Assembly (NCBI RefSeq): GCF_021134715.1
Contig: NC_060020.1
Coordinates: 5,642,001 to 5,706,000 of the forward strand
DNA: 64,000 bases
Direction of reading: 5' to 3'
Source of the DNA: Daphnia pulex
Lineage: Eukaryota; Arthropoda; Branchiopoda; Diplostraca; Daphniidae
The position numbers and the translations under genes are program-made. Below are positions 30,142 to 53,487 of this stretch, one piece after another. Below the pieces are notes generated by a model that searched no databases, was not told where the DNA came from, and worked only from the letters and a program-made list of their open reading frames with translations. Within the stretch, counting starts at the first letter, position 1. Every line of letters begins with the position of its first letter.

Positions 30142-33100
30142 TTAAGCCATGACGAAACCGTTTACGGTAACGCCGTTGACCGTGACTCCCGGCAGAGGTG
30201 AAGGTGGCGGCGATCCATTGGAAACTGGAATAGGCTGTATGGCTCGATTCTTCCTGGTACTAGCCGTGTCCTCGTAGGTTAGATCGTACATGTGATGGTT
30301 TTCACCGGGCAATTGCTCATATATGTCGTTAGTGCTCGAGTAGATGCTGTTTCCGTTCAGGCTGACGGGAAGCGTGTGCATCTGTTGGTGATGTGAATAA
30401 GTTGGCTGATGGCCTACGGGGTTGGTGAATTGTGTTTGCGGAGTTGGTGGCAACGGGATGTTAGGTGGGACCATCGTTATCGTCTGGGGTTTCTTGTTAC
30501 TTCCGGACGAGTCGTTTTGTTTGCCGTTGGGCGCGGCCCAAATCCATGAACCCCGTTTCCTGTTCAAAGAAAGGAAAATTAATTTCAAACTGGAAAATAG
30601 TCTAACCATAAAAATGACATTCAATTTACATTTTGCAATAGAAGAGAGCAATAACGACAAAGAGAACCAAAACGATTCCAGCTCCGACACCAATCCAGAC
30701 TCCGGATCCGCTGGATTGTCTTCCGGCTGACAAACTGTCCAAACCGTTGTCATGCAAAGGAGGGATTGGTTTGCCTTCTTCTGCAAAAATTATTAGTTAT
30801 ACATTTTAAAATTCTATCGTTACAGTCTGTTTAAATTTTACCGATGCACAATGGGATGAGACCAGCCCACCGGCCATCAGCGCCACACTTCCGGCTGAAA
30901 TGTCCAGATCGTTGAAAAGTGGGCAGACAATGATACTCTGCCACGCTACCGAAAATGGTGCTGCCATTAACCAAGAATACACGGCCGTTTTCAACTTCTT
31001 CTGGCTGGTTGCAGTCCACCCCTGAAATTCAATTCAATTAGACACATGTTAGACAACGAAGCCAAAAAAAAATTGCCAATATTTCAAAGTCCTACATTCA
31101 CAGTCTGGTTGACTGCCTTCCCACAGACCGGAGACAAGACATTTGCGAGTCAACGAGCCAACAAGTCGTCGGCCTTCTTGGCAACTATAAACTGCCTGGC
31201 TACCCACGGTCGATGATGTGACGGTGACCAAGACGCCAGAGTCATCAGCCGCCGCTGGAGCAGCACACGTAATTTCTACACAATGACAAAATAAAGTTGA
31301 AATTCTACGAAAACAACTAAATTGCCGAGGCAAGAAAATACCTTTGCAGTTTGGCGGAGATCCACTCCACGATCCGTTTTCTAGACACATTCGTCGTTCG
31401 AACCCTTCCAGCTTGTAATTAACTTCGCAAACGTACTGAGCGTAAGAAGACAAGTAAGTCGTATTGCCAGGAAGGCTAACGGTTCCGTGGGCAGTTTCTT
31501 CAGGTGATCCGCAATCGACATCTACCAATCAAAAGGAAAAGGATTAGAAATCGACCTAGATAAGCGCAGCATAAAATGTCCAATTGTCTTCTTACATGTG
31601 CAGACGGCAACTTCTCCGGTCCATTGGCCAGATTCGTCACAAACGCGGGAATTGCGGCCGTCGAGCCGGAACCCTCGTTCGCACTTGTAGATGACATTCG
31701 ATCCGATGCGGAAAGTGCTGCTGGAAGAGGCTTCACCGCGATCAGTGTTGCGCAACAAGGTGACGGCGCGCAAGCGATCCGAGCTGGAAATGCTAAGCAC
31801 AACGCCGTCGGGCCGCTCTGGCATCGGGCAACGAATTTCACGACACTGAGGCGCTACGCCTGACCATTTACCGTCCTCCATGCAGGTTCGTGACGGCGAA
31901 GATCCTTCCAATCGATAGTTTTGAACGCAATTATAAAACACTTCGCTTCCGAGATGAGTCGTGCCGTTGGTGTAGGCGATTTGCCCGTTGGCGATTTCGG
32001 TCAATGCTCCACAATCCACATCTGTGTCCCCATTAGACAAAAAATGATGCCTTCAGTCATAGATACACAATTACGCAAGGTACAACAACAACAAAAATGA
32101 CTTACAAGTGCACGTCGGTGCTGAATCGGACCAAGTCCCCGAGCGAAGGCACTTTCTCCTGGAATCGCCACTCATCACGTGACCCTTTTCGCAATAGTAT
32201 CGAATTTCTCTGTGAATGGTGAAATCCGTGCCTGTGACGTAGCTGCCAGCTGGAATGTCAGGCTCCTCACATTCGATAACTGGTTTGGAAAAAGGAAAAA
32301 AATTCAAATGTCAAACCAGTAAGCCAATCGGAAAAGCCAAGATCTAATCTTACGTTTGCATGTAGGCAAAGTGGACGACCAGTTGCCATCCTCTTGACAG
32401 AGGCGAGTGGTCCGTCCTTGCAGGCGATAGTCGGATCCGCAAGTATAGGTGGCCTGACTTGAAAAAGTGGTGGTGCCGTTGACAAGCCAAACTGAGCCGT
32501 GAGCGGGTTCCGGTGCCGGTCCGCAGTCGACAAATTGGCAAACTGGAGGAGAGGCCGACCAAATGCCGCCCAGCCGACAGGTGAGAACTTTGGTGCCGAC
32601 CAGTTTATGACCTAAATCGCAGGAATAAGTGGCCGTATCGTTGGCGTTGAGACCCGCCACGGTAATTGAGCCGCGCTCAAATGGAGGCAACTCCGGACAC
32701 CGTCCGTCTAAATCAAACAATGTGACAATTATTATCAATAATAATAAAACGATCAAAGTAAAAAAAAACGTACAAAGACATTTGGGCTCTTCAGGTTCCC
32801 AGTTGCCTTGTGTGGCGCAGCTGCGTTTGCTCGCTCCGACAAGCGTGTAATTTTCGGCGCACGTGTATTTCACGCTAGCACCGAAAGTGGTCCGGCCGTC
32901 GACAATGACCAATTCTCCGTCTTTGATGCCTTTCAATGGACCGCAATCGACGTCTGTCAAGAAAGTGGATGATTATGAGACTTGGTTCTATTCGCCAAGA
33001 AAGTTAATAATAATAATAATAATAACGCCTTACGTTTGCAAGTGGGCGAGTCGTCGCTCCATAGGCCATTAGTTTGACACGATCGGGTTGTTGCGCCTAA

Positions 33101-36100
33101 AGTCACGCTGCCGGTGGGGCAACGATATTCCACCGTGGCCCCCATCGAGAAACTTTTGCCGACGACGGTGCTGTTGACTCGTCGATCGGGATGACCGCAA
33201 GTGAGCGGCGCTGTTTCATAAATATTCAAATTGAAATGATAGAAATTGACCTGCATTTATTGGCAATCGCCTGTCACTTACGAAATTTACAAATCCAATG
33301 GATTTGATCTAAATTGCAGCCGACGTCGTTCCACAACCAGTCACGACCGCCGTCAAGGACGACGCAATTCTGCTCGCCATTGTAGTTGTTGGGTTGCTCG
33401 CGGCCCCATGGTGGCCGTTCGACCACATTGCCCGTCACCCACCTCCAAGTGCGTGATGTGAAGGAAGCCTCTTTTTGCGCACCCACCCAGACCATTGTAG
33501 ACTGAATCAAATAAACAATTCGGGTCCGTTAATTCATGATTATACGTATAACTTGTAATCTGCCTTGCGGGAATTTCATCGTTTAATTACGAGCTCATCC
33601 GAGACACCCTATTCATCAAAATGTGAATAAATTTGTATGCAGTGCTATCTTTGGTAAATTGTAGACCGGCCGCATTCGCCAAGAGGGATTTCAATGTAGA
33701 TTAACCGCTTACTTTCTCTATAATACCGATTCGACTTAGTGTTGAAAGTTTTTGTGGTACTATATATTAAAAAGAAACGTTGAACAAAATCAACAAAGGA
33801 GGAAAAAAATAAGGTGAAACGGCCGCACATGTGCTACTGTTGCCAGTCCATTGGCTGTTCTGCGGTCAACAGTTGAGGAACGCCCTATACAACAAGTCAA
33901 CGGAAAAAAATGTTTCACCTTCATGGCGTGTTTCTTGCGCTCCAGTTCACGGGTGATGAGCTCCAATGTGCTCCTGGCAACGTTGTTCCACAAGTCGCCG
34001 CGCTGCTTGATGCAAGTGTCTCTGGCTTTGGCAAATGTGTTGCCCTCGTTCAGCTGCAGGTCGTAGCAAGTGCGATTGAAGGCGACCACTTTGTCGAGCG
34101 CGGCCGAGTCGGTGCAACTCTCCCGCGGGATATCTTGATAAGATGCACAGAAAAGGCTCATTAGAATGGAATGTGCAAATGGAAGAAAATGATAGTCATC
34201 GAATTGGTAGTCATTATCAATGTAGAATATAGGGTCCGCACGAGTTACTCAGCGCCAGTGGGCTCAAACGATGGAATTGGTGGAGGAGAAGAAGGCGGGA
34301 AATCGAATCAGATTGAGGTGAACGGGAATTGTAATCACAAGTTTCCATGAAAAAAATTTTTCAGAAGTCCGCCATAAATTATGTGGTCAATGGCACCAAT
34401 TCGTAAGGCTCGTGTTTGAAACAATTGAGTTTGTACAAACACCAACTGGCCGAGATGCATAAATAAAAATCGGACAAAAAAAGTCCCGCGGTCGAGAACA
34501 ACAACAACAACAACTACTTCTAAACCCTTTCATTCCCATTGATTTACGGCGTATTATAGAAGCCTATAGGTTACCTGCTCCAGCGGAGAAAACTTCCACT
34601 TCGCACAATGACAGACTGCTCTCGACACCGACCATTTGCACGAAAACGAATTGACCGATTAGGACTTTGGCGCACTGGAAGAGTTTGGTCTCGGCGTCAC
34701 CTGTCCATGGCGAATTGAAAAGAATGGTATCGTTAGAGAACAACCGAGAAAAGAGAAAAGCTAAACAGTTAATAGCAATCATGATTAACGGGTTTGAAGA
34801 GAGACGTACCAACTGAGCCGGGGAACCAGGCACAAAGCGGGTTGCGTTGGGCGTTGGTATTGTTTCCTACTCTAATCTCCAGGTCATGTAGTTTATAATC
34901 TATTTTCGAGAAAAATTAAATTCGTCAACATAAAGCGAAAGATTAATTTCCAACATTCTTTCTCGGAATTTACGTACCGCAACAAGTTCGGGTGGTGACA
35001 CGAACGGCGTTGACGGCCGTAGGTCTCATCAAGTCGCCCATCCACCACGGGCTGGCTTCTTTGGCCGTCTCCGCACAACGGCCGCCCGTTCCGCCAACAT
35101 CGTGGAACGTGCTGCGATCTCCGTCTATGGCATTTAGGGCCGATCCACCTCTCGCCGTACTGGACTGGTTGGCCGACTTACGCAAAGCCACATTTGTCGC
35201 TGTCATAAAAAAAAAAGATACACGTGAAATAATTGTATACACACAACAAATCCGGCTTAACATTTTTTCCCGTTTGGTTTTCTCTTTTTTCTTTTTCAAT
35301 CTCCCATTGCGCAACCGATGAGCTGGAAGGACCACTAAAGCTTGCAATATTTACGGGAAAGTATATACCTATTTTCATTCCAGATTTCTTTAGATGTAGG
35401 TCTGATATCAATCAATAGCCACAAGAACATCTGCCGCGCTTCCTTTCTTCGAAACGAGTCTTCACACGCAATTTCTCCCGGAAGAGGAATTGAGGCAAAG
35501 TGGTGAAGTTGCGTATAATTAAAATGAGTTTACCGCATGTATCAAAACAATAGGACCAACAAAAAAAAAAACCTGCAAGTCCAGGAAATACAATGCACTG
35601 CGATAATAGCAAACTTCCCCTCCACTTTATTTCTATTTTTCATTGAATCCACCAATTTTCTCTTGTTCGCTGAAACACGCTAACGATCTGCTGTGATCCT
35701 GGTCAGCTGGTTGAACCAAGTCTGTGGGACATTCTTTTCGCTAAATACAGTTGATTTAGCGGAGTAACAAAAAGAGAACCTGAGGCCGAGGGGTTTCTAT
35801 TCGATTTTTTGTTTTGTTGTCTTCATAAAACTGTGCACAAAAACTTCACCCTCTCCTTTCTATTTTTTCTCTGGCCATTAAGTTCGTGTGTACACGGCAG
35901 ACGAAAAAAAAGAAGAAAGAAATACGACAAATTCCGAACAAAAGAAAGGTAAAGAATCTAAAAAAGAGCCCACGCGATACCACGGTATGTCTTGTTTTCC
36001 AGTCACAAAATTCTGAGGGGGAGGACGAAGAAACTTTCACGGCTTTCGGGCGTGAAAGAAAAAGCGGCATAGACGAGAGAAGAGTGGGAGGGAAAAAAAC

Positions 36101-43976: not shown

Positions 43977-47215
<3,239 letters not shown>

Positions 47216-47248
47216 TTTTCGATGAAGACGAACTACGCAGAAATACAA

Positions 47249-47289
47249 ACTGAACTTAGGATATCGTCTCTAAAAATTTTACTTATATA
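47249..47289 (-). promoter_or_regulatory. TATA box and initiator of the GH1 gene
   Basis: Minus-strand TATATAAG at 47289-47282 and TCAGT initiator at 47253-47249, about 36 bp from TATA start to initiator and 34 bp before the ATG. This arrangement fits a strong, regulated arthropod promoter such as those of digestive enzymes. Confidence 0.7.
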
Positions 47290-49226
47290 CAGAAACATAT
47301 ATCGAAACACGGGTGTTGAAGAGATAGCAATAATCTGTTATCTTAAGGAATATCTCTCCAGGGTTTTGCTGCTGTTTGCTCAGACTGATAGATGCACAGT
47401 CTACAATTCAAAAAGCAAATATCAAATCCGGCTTTGACATGTTAATTACATAAGATGCAAAGTGGACTTTGTGGAGATAAAGACACCTAGCATAAAAACA
47501 AATCTCGCTTTACATAAAGGTAGCATTTTCCAACTTTCTGATCTGAATCCAAGATATTTTCGTGCGAGAATTAGCAGTCTGTGTGATGCAACTGCTTTGT
47601 CTGAATGTGGCAAGTCATCTGTATTTCAAGCGACGACTGTTGTAACTGATTATTTAAAGCCCTTCTCACATTGACAGTTGAGAATGTTTCCGTACTATCT
47701 TGACCACAAAATGTGAATAAAACATTCCCAACCATGCACGGTATAAACAGATGGTCGAACAGTAAAGCCGGCTTTCTGATAAACCATATTAAATGATTTT
47801 AATCTCTCATTTCTCATATGTCTAGTAATGCAAAAAAAAAAGGCCTACGGGCTGTGTCCTCGCACAACCAAATGACGGACTTCCGACGTCCTTACGTCCG
47901 TCAGTTGGCCATTAACGAAGCAGCGGAAGATATCAATGTCACCGAACAAAAAATTGCGTCCCGGAAACTGAAAATTAAAAAAAAAGTGTGGATTTGTTCA
48001 TCGCCAGGTATCAAAAAACGGTAATTACCGGATGTCACGAATACCAACGAGGACACCCGTCGAGTGCATTATGAATATGAGCAGGATAGAAGATACCGCT
48101 AGAGAGGTTGCGACATTCCCCTAGAACTGGTAAAGGCATTAAAGATTGGTTATTGTCTGAAACACAGCAAGTGTCGCAAGATACTTTCAAACAACAGTTT
48201 CCCGTCAATTTATGAGTCTGCTCTTATTCTGCTTTAATGCCAAACGCATTTCAGAGGCCTTTCTTGTATATAACATCTCACTTTTTTATTTTTTTTAAGG
48301 TGACGTTTTCCCATAACAACCATTAAGGGTTTGAAAATGTCTTGAGTTCAGGTTGTAGATCTCTTATTATATGCCGCTGCATAAATAAAGGTGACCTGAT
48401 GGGTAAAAACTACAGAATCGAGGGCGAGGTGAGGACCGAGATACTTACCTTTTTTTAAGTACAACAATGGCATGGGCATAGTAGCGTGGGCATTTTCGCA
48501 TTATTTGAGGTGAACCATAGGAAGTGTTTTTTTTTTTTTTTCTCTCGGCGTAAAAACTCTGCCGGTTCTCACACCCACAAACAGCAGACTTCATCCACAT
48601 GATACAAAAGGCGAATGGCTAACCATGGAGTGAAATCAACTAAATATACCTCATCATGGTCGCCTTTTCTCTTTCACCGTGATCACTGACCGCAACTGAG
48701 AAAGTCGCGCAGTACGTTCGTTTATGAACAGCCACCGCCCCGATCAGCAGCTCTGGGCCCTTCCATGATTGCATCCTGCTGGGTTGAGTGACAATAAAAA
48801 TAATATGTAAATTCAAAAATCAAGACAAAAATTATTGGCAAATTCCCGTTCCGTACTTCATGACAGGGCATTTGTTTATTCAGTAAATGTAAAAAAAAAA
48901 AGAGCAGAACTTAGCAGTCTGTAGGATTTGGACCGACCCGATGGAATGAGAGTCTTAAAATTACATTTTTACTGTACATTTAAGATGACACTATGGACAG
49001 AATTAAGCAAAACGAGAGAAAAAAGAAATTTGGTGCGCTTGTAAGTAGAAAATGTAGCTTCAAAATATTTTCGATTAACTGATATTGAATACATTTTCCA
49101 CAATCAATTGCATTTATGTATACTTGATGTAGGAGGTGTACGGCACAACGAGATGGTCGACGAGAGGCAGACAGGTTGAAGACTGAAGAGCATCATGAGG
49201 GGAGATCGGAAGTGTGAAAAAAGCGG
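47290..49226. other. Intergenic region, no supported gene
   Basis: Short open stretches at 47462-47674 and 47818-48024 (+) have no recognised domain or splice partner. There are poly-T and poly-A runs near 48527-48542 and 48892-48902. The 3' UTR of PPP1R11 presumably occupies the last part. Confidence 0.4.
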
Positions 49227-51166
49227 TTATGTGGCTTCTTTGGAGTTTTTGTGCTCCACATGGCCACTGCAGTGATCACACTCGTCTTCTTCAGACTCCG
49301 AAGAACTCTCCCCAAACTTGTGTGGCTTTTTGTACACACAACAACCTGAGAAGGAGAAATAAATTATGTAGAAAATGAACGAATTAAAAGCACATTTTCA
49401 AAATCAATTAATAGAAAATTACGACTTTCCCATTCAAAGATCTTGCCTTACATTTAGATTTCTTCCGTCCTAGATGTTCGTTATCGACCGTGTCCTGCGA
49501 CCAACCCACTTTCTTGGACGTCTGGGGTTTCTTCAAAGTTAGAACCACTGTCGATTCCTGAAAAACAAAAAAAAAAAAATAATTTGATAACGTAGGTTTA
49601 AGCTAAATTAAAATTCGTCGACTTTAACTAATATAACTTGGTAAAGTGGACAGCCAAATGAACTTAATAATCTTTCGCTTTTATTCGGATTCAAATGTAA
49701 TTATTACACAATTTAAAATAATAATTTCGTGAGTCTAATTTATAATGCCACTTTCTCTGAGTTGCTGTATCTGCACTGAAGAATAACCCAATCGATCCTG
49801 AAGCACGGATTCAGTGTGTTGGCCCAATTCTGGAGGAGGAAGTCGAATATAGTTGCCTGAATTGCTAAACTCGACTGGTGGGCCGACAAGTTTAAGAGTA
49901 CCGGCTGAAGGATGGTCAATTTCCTGTACCATACGGTTATGTTGCACTTGAGGATCAGCAAAGACCTCAGATAATGAGTTAATGGGGCCATACGAAAAAT
50001 GCGCACCACGAAAGAGTTCCATCCACTCTGAGTTCGTTTTGGTTGCCAGAGTTTTACCAATTTCGTCAACGAGTTCACTTCTATGTTTGACTCGCAATGC
50101 ATTCGTCAGGTATTTTGGATCGGAAGACAAATCGCTTCGGCAGATTCTCGAACAAAGTTCACGAAATTGGCGATCGTTAGTTCCGCCAACTGTTACGTAG
50201 CCGTCGGATGTTGGAAATGCCTGGTAAGGCACAATGCTTTCATGTGCTGTGCCCCAACGCTTAGCTTCTTGTCCAGCCATTAGATAGTTGGATCCAAGAT
50301 TCACCAAACAAGCGACTTGAGTTGAGAGCAAATTTGCGCTTATTCGCTGGCCAGTGTTGGTTTTCTGTCGTTGGAACAAAGCTGCCATTATAGCTCCATG
50401 AGCGTATAAACCAGTAGCCAAGTCCGTTAGAGCTACCCCAGTTTTACAAGGAGCTCCATCTTCTGGCCCTGTTATGTGAATGAGTCCGCCGATGGAAGAT
50501 GCAATGACGTCGTAACCTGGTCGAGAAGCATAAGGGCCAGTGCTCCCATATCCAGTGATTGAGCAGTAAATAAGTTGTGGGTTAATTTTCTTTAAATCTT
50601 CATATCCCAAGCCATATTCTTCCATTTTCCCTGGTAAATAGTTTTCAACCAGTACATCACTTTGCATTGCCAGTTGTTCAATGATTTTCTTTCCTTCTTC
50701 AGATTTCAAGTCAATGCAAATACTTTTCTTATTCCGATTAATGCTGATGAAATAACAACTTGTGTTTCCAACAAATGGAGGTCCCCAGCTTCTTGTGTCA
50801 TCCCCCACCTTCAATCGTTCAACCTTCAAAATATCAGCCCCCAAATCACCAAGGATTTGTGTACAGTAAGGGCCAGCTAAAACACGAGTAAGATCCAATA
50901 CTTTTACACCTGCCAATGCATCACTGACTGTTGAACTGTACCTAGTACGCACTTTTGATGGATCTTTTATCAATGCCTTTTGAAATAACTTCATTCGAAC
51001 AAAAGAAAGCATTTTGAACTGAAAGTAGGTTGTTATACAGGAGAACAGGAGAAAAAAAAACAATATACAAAATCTTCTCTTAGTTGCTCACCTCCTGTTT
51101 TTCAGATGTGGTTTCTGTTTGTATGGATGTCTGGGTTTCCTCTATGCTTCGTGAAGCCATTGCCAT
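49227..51166 (-). CDS. PPP1R11: Protein phosphatase 1 regulatory inhibitor subunit 11
   Basis: Exons 51166-51092, 49557-49452 and 49345-49227 (300 nt, 99 aa; human about 126). An acidic/Thr-rich N-terminus (ETQTSIQTETTSEK) leads into STVVLTLKKPQ, then KKVGW, the RVxF-like PP1-docking motif (41-44), [22 protein letters not shown] and FGESS followed by an acidic tract with DECDHCSGHVEH. This is the conserved core of Inhibitor-3: a small, mostly disordered protein that inhibits PP1 and whose Cys-rich part has been reported to act as an E3 ligase. Intron 1 is 1534 bp and contains the complete SUGCT reading frame on the same strand. The family match is firm, and frame is kept at both junctions (phase 0, then 1). 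Confidence 0.93.
49680..49685 (-). terminator. Poly(A) signal after SUGCT, inside PPP1R11 intron 1
   Basis: Minus-strand AATAAA about 50 bp after the SUGCT stop and 120 bp before PPP1R11 exon 2. Its use would end a SUGCT transcript within the intron. Confidence 0.6.
49735..51012 (-). CDS. SUGCT: Succinate--hydroxymethylglutarate CoA-transferase (class III)
   Basis: A single uninterrupted exon of 425 aa. The N-terminus (MLSFVRMKLFQKALIK) is basic and amphipathic, like a mitochondrial presequence. It is followed by the CoA-transferase family III core: GVKVLDLTRVLAGPYCTQILGDLGADILKVE, then SINRNKKSICIDL, ITGYGSTGP and GVALTDLATGLYAHGA. In the last, Asp197 corresponds to the catalytic Asp that forms the acyl-anhydride intermediate. 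Known SUGCT transfers CoA from succinyl-CoA to glutarate in mitochondria. A strong acceptor (CTACTTTCAG) lies 6 bases before the ATG and stays in frame with PPP1R11 exon 1, so the transcript probably starts at that shared exon. Intronless structure among intron-rich genes suggests a retro-copied or intron-cleared gene. I chose the ATG at 51012 because the upstream codons are intron sequence. Confidence 0.9.
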   Translation of the reverse strand: MLSFVRMKLFQKALIKDPSKVRTRYSSTVSDALAGVKVLDLTRVLAGPYCTQILGDLGADILKVERLKVGDDTRSWGPPFVGNTSCYFISINRNKKSICIDLKSEEGKKIIEQLAMQSDVLVENYLPGKMEEYGLGYEDLKKINPQLIYCSITGYGSTGPYASRPGYDVIASSIGGLIHITGPEDGAPCKTGVALTDLATGLYAHGAIMAALFQRQKTNTGQRISANLLSTQVACLVNLGSNYLMAGQEAKRWGTAHESIVPYQAFPTSDGYVTVGGTNDRQFRELCSRICRSDLSSDPKYLTNALRVKHRSELVDEIGKTLATKTNSEWMELFRGAHFSYGPINSLSEVFADPQVQHNRMVQEIDHPSAGTLKLVGPPVEFSNSGNYIRLPPPELGQHTESVLQDRLGYSSVQIQQLRESGIIN

Positions 51167-51508
51167 AATCTGTTATTCAATTTAATGTAAACGCAAAATT
51201 TATAAACCCGTAACTTTATCGTTTAATTCTTTCTAGATTCTTGAACGATTTAAAGGAATAACCGAATTTATAGCAACAAACGACGAGAGACGTAGAAAAT
51301 ATCAATTGCCTCACCACTTGGATCGCTTCAGAAGAAGAAGAGCAGCCGACATCACGTCGTCAAGAGTTGGCGCGAAATGTTGTTAAATTAAAATTTAGTA
51401 TCATTCCATTAGGTCTGTGGTAATGTTCGTGCTATCTTATCAATCACATATACTTTTCAAATCAGAAATAGTAATTATTTAGAATTATCCCACTACTAGA
51501 AAACTTAT

Positions 51509-51611: not shown

Positions 51612-51892
51612 ATAAAAAATAAGAAAGAAAATTAATTGTGTTTGGATTGGTTTGCTAGATTAGAAATATATAAAATGTGCATAATAAATATTGTGAATTA
51701 AATTCTGTCGGTTGTTGCAGAATGAAGCAACGATTTATTTTATTTTAAGTTTTGTGTTTCCGATAGCTATCGCTTGGTTCGCAAGGAGTAATGAAAAGCA
51801 GACAATACTTTAGACTTGTTTGATCGCACGTGGCGTTGTTCAATAATTTTGTGGCTTCTGATAATTTTGACATTAAATAATCTTGATTGAAA

Positions 51893-53487
51893 ATGACTGA
51901 CGTTGTCCAGGAAATCAAGAAATCGGAGAAGAAGAAGAAAACCGATGTTAAAAAGACCGCTGTCAAGAAAAACGCTGTCAAGAAAACCGCTGTAAAATCT
52001 ACCAAATCTGATGCGACTTTGTTGAAAGATGCTAAAAAAAGAATAATGAGTCGCCAGGTTTGTCTTTTGTCATTCTGTTTTTTTGTTGATGCAACTCTCA
52101 AAATTTTGTTTTCATGAATTTTTCATTATAGAAAAAGACCAAGAAAGATTCTAAGAAAGAAGGAAAGGTTAAAGTCAAAACTACAAAGAAAAACCCCAAG
52201 AAACGTGGAGTTGTCTACCTTGGTCATATTCCCCATGGTTTTTATGAAGAAGAATTAAGAGGTTTCTTTTCACAGTTTGGGGAAGTTTCTCGAGTTAAAG
52301 TCTCAAGGAGTTCCAAAGTAAGAATCCTACATATTATGACAAATTATTTATGCTAACTTATTTAAAATTTAAAATACACAGACAGGGAAAAGCAAAGGAT
52401 ATGCTTTCATCGAATTTGCCTTCAATGATGTTGCTAAAATTGTTGCGGAAACTATGAACAACTATCTCATGTTTGAAAGGCTTGTAAAAGGTACGAGGAT
52501 TTTTTATAATATTATCGACAATTTTTTAAAATCAAGAATCGAAATTTACTACTTTTCTATTCAGCCCAGTATATTCCACCAGAGAAGGTTCATTCCAATA
52601 CGTTTCCCATTCGCTTCATGACTCCCGAATGTTATCCAGCACTTGTGCGAAGGAATCGTGTTTTGTCAAAACAAGATAAGCCCGTAACTGAAGTTAACAA
52701 AAAGAAGCACAGAAGCCGCATCCAATTTAAAATAAGCCGAGCTGTCAGTGGGCTTAAGGAACTAGGTATTGACCACCATCCTCAAATCTACGACCCAGAA
52801 GTCGGTGAGCTCCAGAATGAAAGCATTTCTCTCACTAATGACGATGAAGTTCCTCAGCTGGTTGCAATTCAGCCTAGTACTACTACTGAGAATAAACCAT
52901 CAAAGAAAGTGGGAAAGGCGCTCAAGAAGGACAACGTCAAAGTGAAACCAACCACAGATTCCACACCCACGAAACCGACTAATGTTACAGCAGATGCCGT
53001 CTCAGTTGCCGTTCAACCAACTACACCAGAAAAAACATCGCCCAAAATAACGCGTAATCAACGTAAAGCTCTCCTGAAAAAGAACAAAGATAATGCTGTT
53101 GAGGTGAAGCCTACAAAAGATTCCTCACCGGCCGCCCCGACTGAAGCAGAAAAAGTCCTCAAGTTAGACCAGAAAGCATCGCCCAAAGCGAACAATGGAA
53201 GCAATACTAAGGAATCGCCAAAAGGGAAAAGGAAAAGCTTAGCAGTAACTGAAACCAATCCAGCAGCAAGTGTTGCGGTATCGCAATCGCCAAGCAAACG
53301 TTCGAAATTAACTACTCCTGCTAAAGCTGATAACACACCTTCGAAGAAGGATTCTAAAGTGTCAGCCAAGCCTTCTCCTCAACCCGCTAAAACATCTGAA
53401 AAAGCCAAGCCCAAGACTTTGGAAAAAGCTACTGCTCCATCAAAATTACCCGTACTACGTTCCGTTAAAGGGAAAAAGTCTGTTTGA
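51893..53487 (+). CDS. NIFK: MKI67 FHA domain-interacting nucleolar phosphoprotein
   Basis: Exons 51893-52057, 52132-52317, 52382-52490 and 52565-53487 (1383 nt, 460 aa). A Lys-rich N-terminus precedes one RRM (residues about 82-158): RNP2 is VVYLGHIP and RNP1 is KGYAFIEF, with [12 protein letters not shown] between. The RRM is followed by the family region [16 protein letters not shown] and a basic segment. The C-terminal half is a long Lys/Pro/Ser/Thr-rich disordered tail with repeated KxSPK and KPTxDSxP patterns. Human NIFK is shorter (about 293 aa); the extra length is the tail. The family acts in nucleolar pre-rRNA processing and chromosome-surface association through Ki-67. The minus-strand open frame over exon 1 is a composition shadow of Lys codons. 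Confidence 0.9.

Follow-up and report, generated by a model that had tools for sequence, protein, structure and literature searches.

An intronless SUGCT gene within the first intron of PPP1R11 in Daphnia pulex and a first exon that the two genes may share

An intronless gene for the CoA-transferase SUGCT lies within the first intron of PPP1R11, on the same strand, in the 64,000-nucleotide stretch of the Daphnia pulex genome that was analyzed (the window; C4:5642001-5706000, where C4 is the contig). The whole SUGCT frame falls inside that intron, fills most of it, and begins 79 nt beyond the end of PPP1R11 exon 1. It is plausible, with the chances standing about even, that the two genes also have their first exon in common. 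RNA polymerase would start shortly before PPP1R11 exon 1, in a region with TATA motifs. The exon 1 donor would then be joined to one of two acceptors: a near one at 51018, for a SUGCT mRNA with its 3' end beyond the AATAAA at 49685 to 49680, or a far and much stronger one at 49557, for the PPP1R11 mRNA. SUGCT would be read from its own ATG at 51012, reached by leaky scanning or carried on transcripts that start downstream of both PPP1R11 ATGs. For this reading as a whole, with a shared promoter region, a donor that chooses between two acceptors, and a retrocopied SUGCT translated from 51012, we see roughly as much reason to accept it as to doubt it. The features of the locus are collected in Table 1.

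Table 1. Features of the PPP1R11/SUGCT locus, in positions of the window
Feature	Positions	Strand	Description
Distal TATAAAT	51266..51272	-	Predicted start at 51242, TATA at -30, AGTTA (DPE-like) at +28; top composite core-promoter score
Proximal TATAAAT	51198..51204	-	Predicted start near 51171-51176, 5-10 nt before PPP1R11 ATG; 51171 has second-best composite score
PPP1R11 coding exon 1	51092..51166	-	25 codons, ends in phase 0 at the donor GAG|GTGAGC; may be the first exon of both genes
PPP1R11 intron 1	49558..51091	-	1534 nt, holds SUGCT
Candidate 73-nt intron, PPP1R11 exon 1 to SUGCT	51019..51091	-	In-frame TAA, no ATG
SUGCT coding sequence	49735..51012	-	Intronless frame of 425 codons and a stop; family III CoA-transferase
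AATAAA, poly(A) signal assigned to SUGCT	49680..49685	-	Upstream of PPP1R11 exon 2
PPP1R11 coding exon 2	49452..49557	-	Acceptor 12.65 bits
PPP1R11 coding exon 3 with stop codon	49227..49345	-	From reading and translation

The three coding exons of PPP1R11 splice to a product of 99 aa that matches PF07491 (PPI_Ypi1) at 76.6 bits over residues 34 to 81 in a profile search. Its closest PDB sequence match is 8dwk, a chain named PPP1R11 that we take to be the human protein. The SUGCT product matches PF02515 at 420.2 bits over residues 33 to 400, which covers the profile from position 1 to 366 of 366. Its closest PDB match is 9br6, with a chain named succinate--hydroxymethylglutarate CoA-transferase (presumably human SUGCT), to which 213 of 393 aligned residues are identical. 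In the sequence search against PDB chains, 9br6 and 9br7 score 487.4 bits, the next chain (10uh) 332.6 bits, and the racemases 104 to 115 bits; by these match scores, the protein appears nearer to the SUGCT chains than to other family III enzymes. The original prediction had described an exon 1 that ends in phase 0, an exon 2 that begins at 49557, and a SUGCT without introns between them that has its own AATAAA ahead of exon 2. Reading and translation bear out all of these points: the SUGCT frame is unbroken, and the AATAAA is the only AATAAA or ATTAAA on the minus strand from 49800 to 49200. Clean translations and matches to the expected families, for the one gene as for the other, speak for the shared-exon reading. 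The nested gene is far beyond chance, and the acceptor beside its ATG, taken alone, is not.

SUGCT appears to be a single-copy gene. Apart from the gene itself, a six-frame profile search of the assembly (133,188,837 bases in 13 contigs) found only three stretches that match PF02515, all within C4:4012636-4013832, which probably encode the racemase AMACR; in a protein search, two of them align weakly to SUGCT, with 23% and 46% identity (E values of 0.008 and 0.018). A second SUGCT was not found in the assembly by the six-frame PF02515, protein, or DNA searches, and the DNA search, made with 2,701 bases of the locus, matched only the locus itself. The gene is thus intronless with no intron-bearing copy left in the assembly according to the six-frame and DNA searches, the state expected of an orphan retrogene, and its neighbors do carry introns (8 placed in a GH1 gene, 4 in FNTA, and 3 in a NIFK-like gene). 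Being intronless and single copy, SUGCT is most likely an old retrocopy that has outlived its intron-bearing parent. No target-site duplication was found, the longest string common to the two SUGCT flanks being a run of T, and no poly(A) remnant was found, as a run of at least 6 A is absent from the 3' flank (49734 to 49558). Since such marks decay with age, retrocopying is best regarded as the likely origin of the gene rather than as a class to which it is assigned. Recent transfer from bacteria was considered and is unsupported, because the identity to 9br6 exceeds that to both bacterial loci found, the better of which is 46% identical to SUGCT. That scan catches only loci matching one of six exact peptides; it picked out 19 stretches, of which 2 encode a relative. 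When viral contigs were scanned, there were five pattern matches and no relative among them.

Splice signals were scored with a position model trained on 17 introns that had been placed by eye from homologous proteins, so small a set that its ranks are rough. To the introns of the GH1, FNTA, and NIFK-like genes named above, the training set adds one from a TNFAIP8-like gene and PPP1R11 intron 2; PPP1R11 intron 1, the introns in the other gene with PF02515, and one further GH1 donor without a placeable acceptor were left out. The spliced products match PPTA repeats, Glyco_hydro_1, RRM_1, TNFAIP8, farnesyltransferase alpha chains, and beta-glucosidases, and 15 of the 17 junctions fall inside the family or PDB-chain match of the spliced product, the exceptions being NIFK-like introns 1 and 3, which lie outside the RRM match and were placed by eye reading only. 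Two other models were set aside. Learning splice signals de novo from open frames gave a reversed-sequence control that was too high (real-to-control ratios of 73:34, 40:19, and 8:3). A model built on eight introns gave the 51018 acceptor -11.67, but it was discarded because it failed real sites of PPP1R11, giving -12.42 to the acceptor at 49345 and -4.74 to the donor at 49451.

With the 17-intron model, the donor of PPP1R11 exon 1 scores 7.01 bits, in a set whose placed donors range from 0.34 to 8.92 bits when each is left out in turn. On the near side, CTACTTTCAG ends at 51019, and the acceptor position 6 nt ahead of the SUGCT ATG agrees with the original prediction, which had also called this acceptor strong. 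That description was overstated. The 51018 acceptor scores 2.44 bits, against 12.65 bits for that of PPP1R11 exon 2, and 3 of the 17 placed acceptors (range of -0.97 to 12.41 bits, left-one-out) score no higher; over six model widths, this count is 10, 5, 2, 2, 2, and 2. It ranks 12th of the 80 AG sites between 51070 and 49551 (9th to 21st depending on model width), and 3,052 of 29,399 AGs in 264 kb score as well. The 51018 acceptor is thus ordinary to weak. The distance is ordinary as well: 16 of the 17 placed introns are 58 to 79 nt long and the other is 106 nt, while a splice from exon 1 to 51018 would remove 73 nt. A weaker near acceptor at the usual distance together with a very strong far one would be the expected look of a two-way choice.

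Promoter-like signals are found on the far side of exon 1. In the 64-kb window, TATAAAT is found 11 times on the minus strand and twice on the plus strand; two of the minus-strand copies, at 51272 and 51204, lie shortly before the PPP1R11 ATG at 51166. The wider motif TATAWAW is found on the minus strand between 51700 and 51013 only at 51672, 51272, and 51204, and neither form is present in the 73-nt stretch between the exon 1 donor and the near acceptor (51091 to 51019). This arrangement favors a promoter region that both genes would use. A composite score of general TATA, initiator, and DPE shapes, which gives motif scores rather than measurements, was computed for the 687 positions from 51700 to 51014. 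The score for a start at 51242 is reached by 0.007% of 42,588 sampled window positions, so that about 0.05 such hits would be expected among 687, and the score for 51171 is reached by 0.021%. In comparison, the top score within 51091 to 51014 is reached by 1.8% of the sampled positions and that within exon 1 by 4.0%. The composite scores therefore favor a predicted start upstream of PPP1R11 exon 1. A gene that we take to be NIFK-like, with a match to RRM_1, lies at 51893 to 53487 on the plus strand and is read divergently from PPP1R11, with 727 nt from its start to the PPP1R11 ATG; given these divergent starts, the region between them may be a bidirectional promoter.

One promoter and one first exon for two proteins, as originally proposed, thus holds up in part: the nesting, the good donor, the 73-nt length, and the upstream TATA motifs speak for it, and the strength of the near acceptor does not. 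It is the likeliest single reading, because the donor is good, the length is normal, only 79 nt would be left for a promoter of SUGCT itself, and the TATA motifs stand before PPP1R11 rather than in the 73-nt stretch.

The main rival is a separate SUGCT start inside the intron. SUGCT would then be a plain nested gene, transcribed from a site in the 79 nt after the donor or in the last part of exon 1. The CAG that precedes its ATG would be there by chance or as part of an initiator. We regard this as possible but rather less than probable. The ordinary quality of the acceptor speaks for it and against a shared exon, as 629 of 8,286 ATGs in 264 kb (7.6%) have an equally good acceptor 0 to 12 nt upstream, and so does the good context of the SUGCT ATG, CAAAATG. 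Internal genes are also described as typically short and intronless (PMC8467205). However, the 73-nt stretch has no TATAWAW, its top composite score is an ordinary one, and a decoy acceptor only 73 nt beyond the donor, if it were never used, would be expected to harm PPP1R11 splicing and to be selected against. At 51030 to 51012 on the minus strand, TTTCAGTTC ahead of the SUGCT ATG fits an acceptor and also an initiator-like TCAGTT, as which TTTCAGTT of the 51018 acceptor may be read. Because the same letters fit both, sequence alone cannot tell the acceptor and initiator readings apart.

If the first exon is shared, the choice of start codon has to be accounted for. From 51260 to the SUGCT start, only two ATGs occur, at 51166 and 51160. 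They belong to the PPP1R11 frame, and each has a purine at -3 and G at +4; the SUGCT ATG has C at +4 in a context that we take to be close to the fly consensus. Two in-frame ATGs in a shared exon would favor a fusion protein unless they were skipped. We think that translation of the working enzyme begins at 51012, which would require leaky scanning or transcript starts beyond 51160. The two TATA motifs offer one way in which this could come about, as a switch between starts. A distal start (near 51242) would give a 76-nt leader and PPP1R11, and proximal starts (51171 to 51176) would place both PPP1R11 ATGs 5 to 16 nt from the cap, so that ribosomes would skip to the SUGCT ATG of the spliced mRNA. 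Starts that lie 5 to 10 nt before the first ATG would favor leaky scanning. As a specific mechanism, this switch is improbable. If true, one promoter region and one exon would serve for a PP1 inhibitor and for a mitochondrial CoA-transferase, with the start site and the acceptor used deciding between them, and phosphatase control would be coupled to glutarate metabolism.

A SUGCT mRNA translated from the PPP1R11 ATG instead would give a fusion protein with altered targeting, as the original prediction had suggested. Its in-frame join is confirmed by translation: exon 1 joined to 51018 is open through F-K-M-L-S-F and encodes 452 aa, and the bases at -3 and +4 of the two upstream ATGs speak for it. 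However, an in-frame join has a 1-in-3 chance, and the extension comprises 27 residues (25 from PPP1R11 plus F-K). It is mostly acidic and would precede a basic N terminus: the first 30 residues hold 7 K+R and 1 D+E in SUGCT but 3 K+R and 5 D+E in the fusion. By charge, the SUGCT N terminus is a candidate presequence, for an enzyme that would be mitochondrial. The hydrophobic moment is not distinctive, its largest value over the first 30 residues being higher for the fusion (1.55) than for SUGCT (1.19), and this measure does not support the presequence argument. As the SUGCT ATG also keeps a good context, the fusion is unlikely as the working enzyme, and we give this reading a slim chance.

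An equally slim chance attaches to a shared promoter without splicing, in which the 73 nt would be retained, the transcript would end at the SUGCT poly(A) site, and ribosomes would reinitiate at SUGCT after an upstream frame of 28 codons. The unspliced PPP1R11 frame does stop after 28 codons, and there is no ATG from the donor to SUGCT, but removal of the stretch is expected from its good donor and normal intron length, and translation reinitiation is inefficient. The acceptor directly before the ATG could also be a site for trans-splicing of a spliced leader, as reported in calanoid copepods (PMC4664967), but this is very hard to credit given a good cis donor 73 nt upstream, no Daphnia spliced-leader system shown, by title or abstract opening, in the papers that name both Daphnia and spliced leaders, no mention of Daphnia in PMC4664967, and trans-splicing given for C. 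elegans only among the FABP transcripts of PMC3796463.

The shared-exon reading is of a known kind, since nested genes with a shared exon have been described for other gene pairs; the SUGCT/PPP1R11 pair itself was not found described in the open-licence literature among the matches listed, nor was a Daphnia start-site map. In human, we presume, the two genes are unlinked and SUGCT has multiple exons, unlike this locus. The closest precedent appears to be the ChAT/VAChT locus of Ixodes ticks, in which an 82-bp exon 1 is common to both mRNAs, as confirmed by RT-PCR in the account given in PMC7524744. VAChT is encoded by one exon within ChAT intron 1, and a study of mouse states that this layout has been conserved across nematode, Drosophila, and mammals (PMC3053374); SUGCT likewise is a one-exon frame in the first intron of its host. 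However, ChAT and VAChT belong to one pathway, whereas no pathway is known in which PPP1R11 and SUGCT both act; PPP1R11 exon 1 encodes part of the host protein, and its sharing is a candidate reading of sequence signals in one genome. A second parallel may be drawn with intronic "hitchhike" retrogenes, retrocopies that lie close to the start of a host gene and are described as using its 5' untranslated region; the mouse Taf9 retrogene, for example, carries two Ak6 exons, the first and second. The same source also covers orphan retrogenes, which have taken the place of their parents (PMC5408686). Intronless SUGCT is similarly near the 5' end of its host and may borrow its promoter and first exon, but it differs in that neither a target-site duplication nor a poly(A) remnant was found, so that the comparison depends on a probable retrocopy origin.

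If the junction from 51092 to 51018 exists, the locus would be an arthropod case of a metabolic gene that is nested in an unrelated host and supplied by it with promoter and first exon, whereas in ChAT/VAChT, the best-known example of this layout, the two genes serve the same pathway. Expression of a PP1 inhibitor would then be linked to that of a mitochondrial CoA-transferase, and the locus would offer a ready system for competition between a weak near acceptor and a strong far one. If the junction does not exist, SUGCT is an ordinary nested gene.

Several other features were seen in the window. The GH1 beta-glucosidase-like gene used for training lies at 45200 to 47320 on the minus strand and matches PF00232 at 389.2 bits, with 8in1 as its closest PDB chain; its exons were read to about 45530, and the match to the PF00232 profile stops at position 320 of 453. 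Between 19996 and 27171, both strands hold open frames of repeats such as TEAPKYYT, which by eye suggest a low-complexity repetitive protein or a repeat cluster. Open frames on the minus strand from 31000 to 35200 resemble, also by eye, sushi/CCP repeats.
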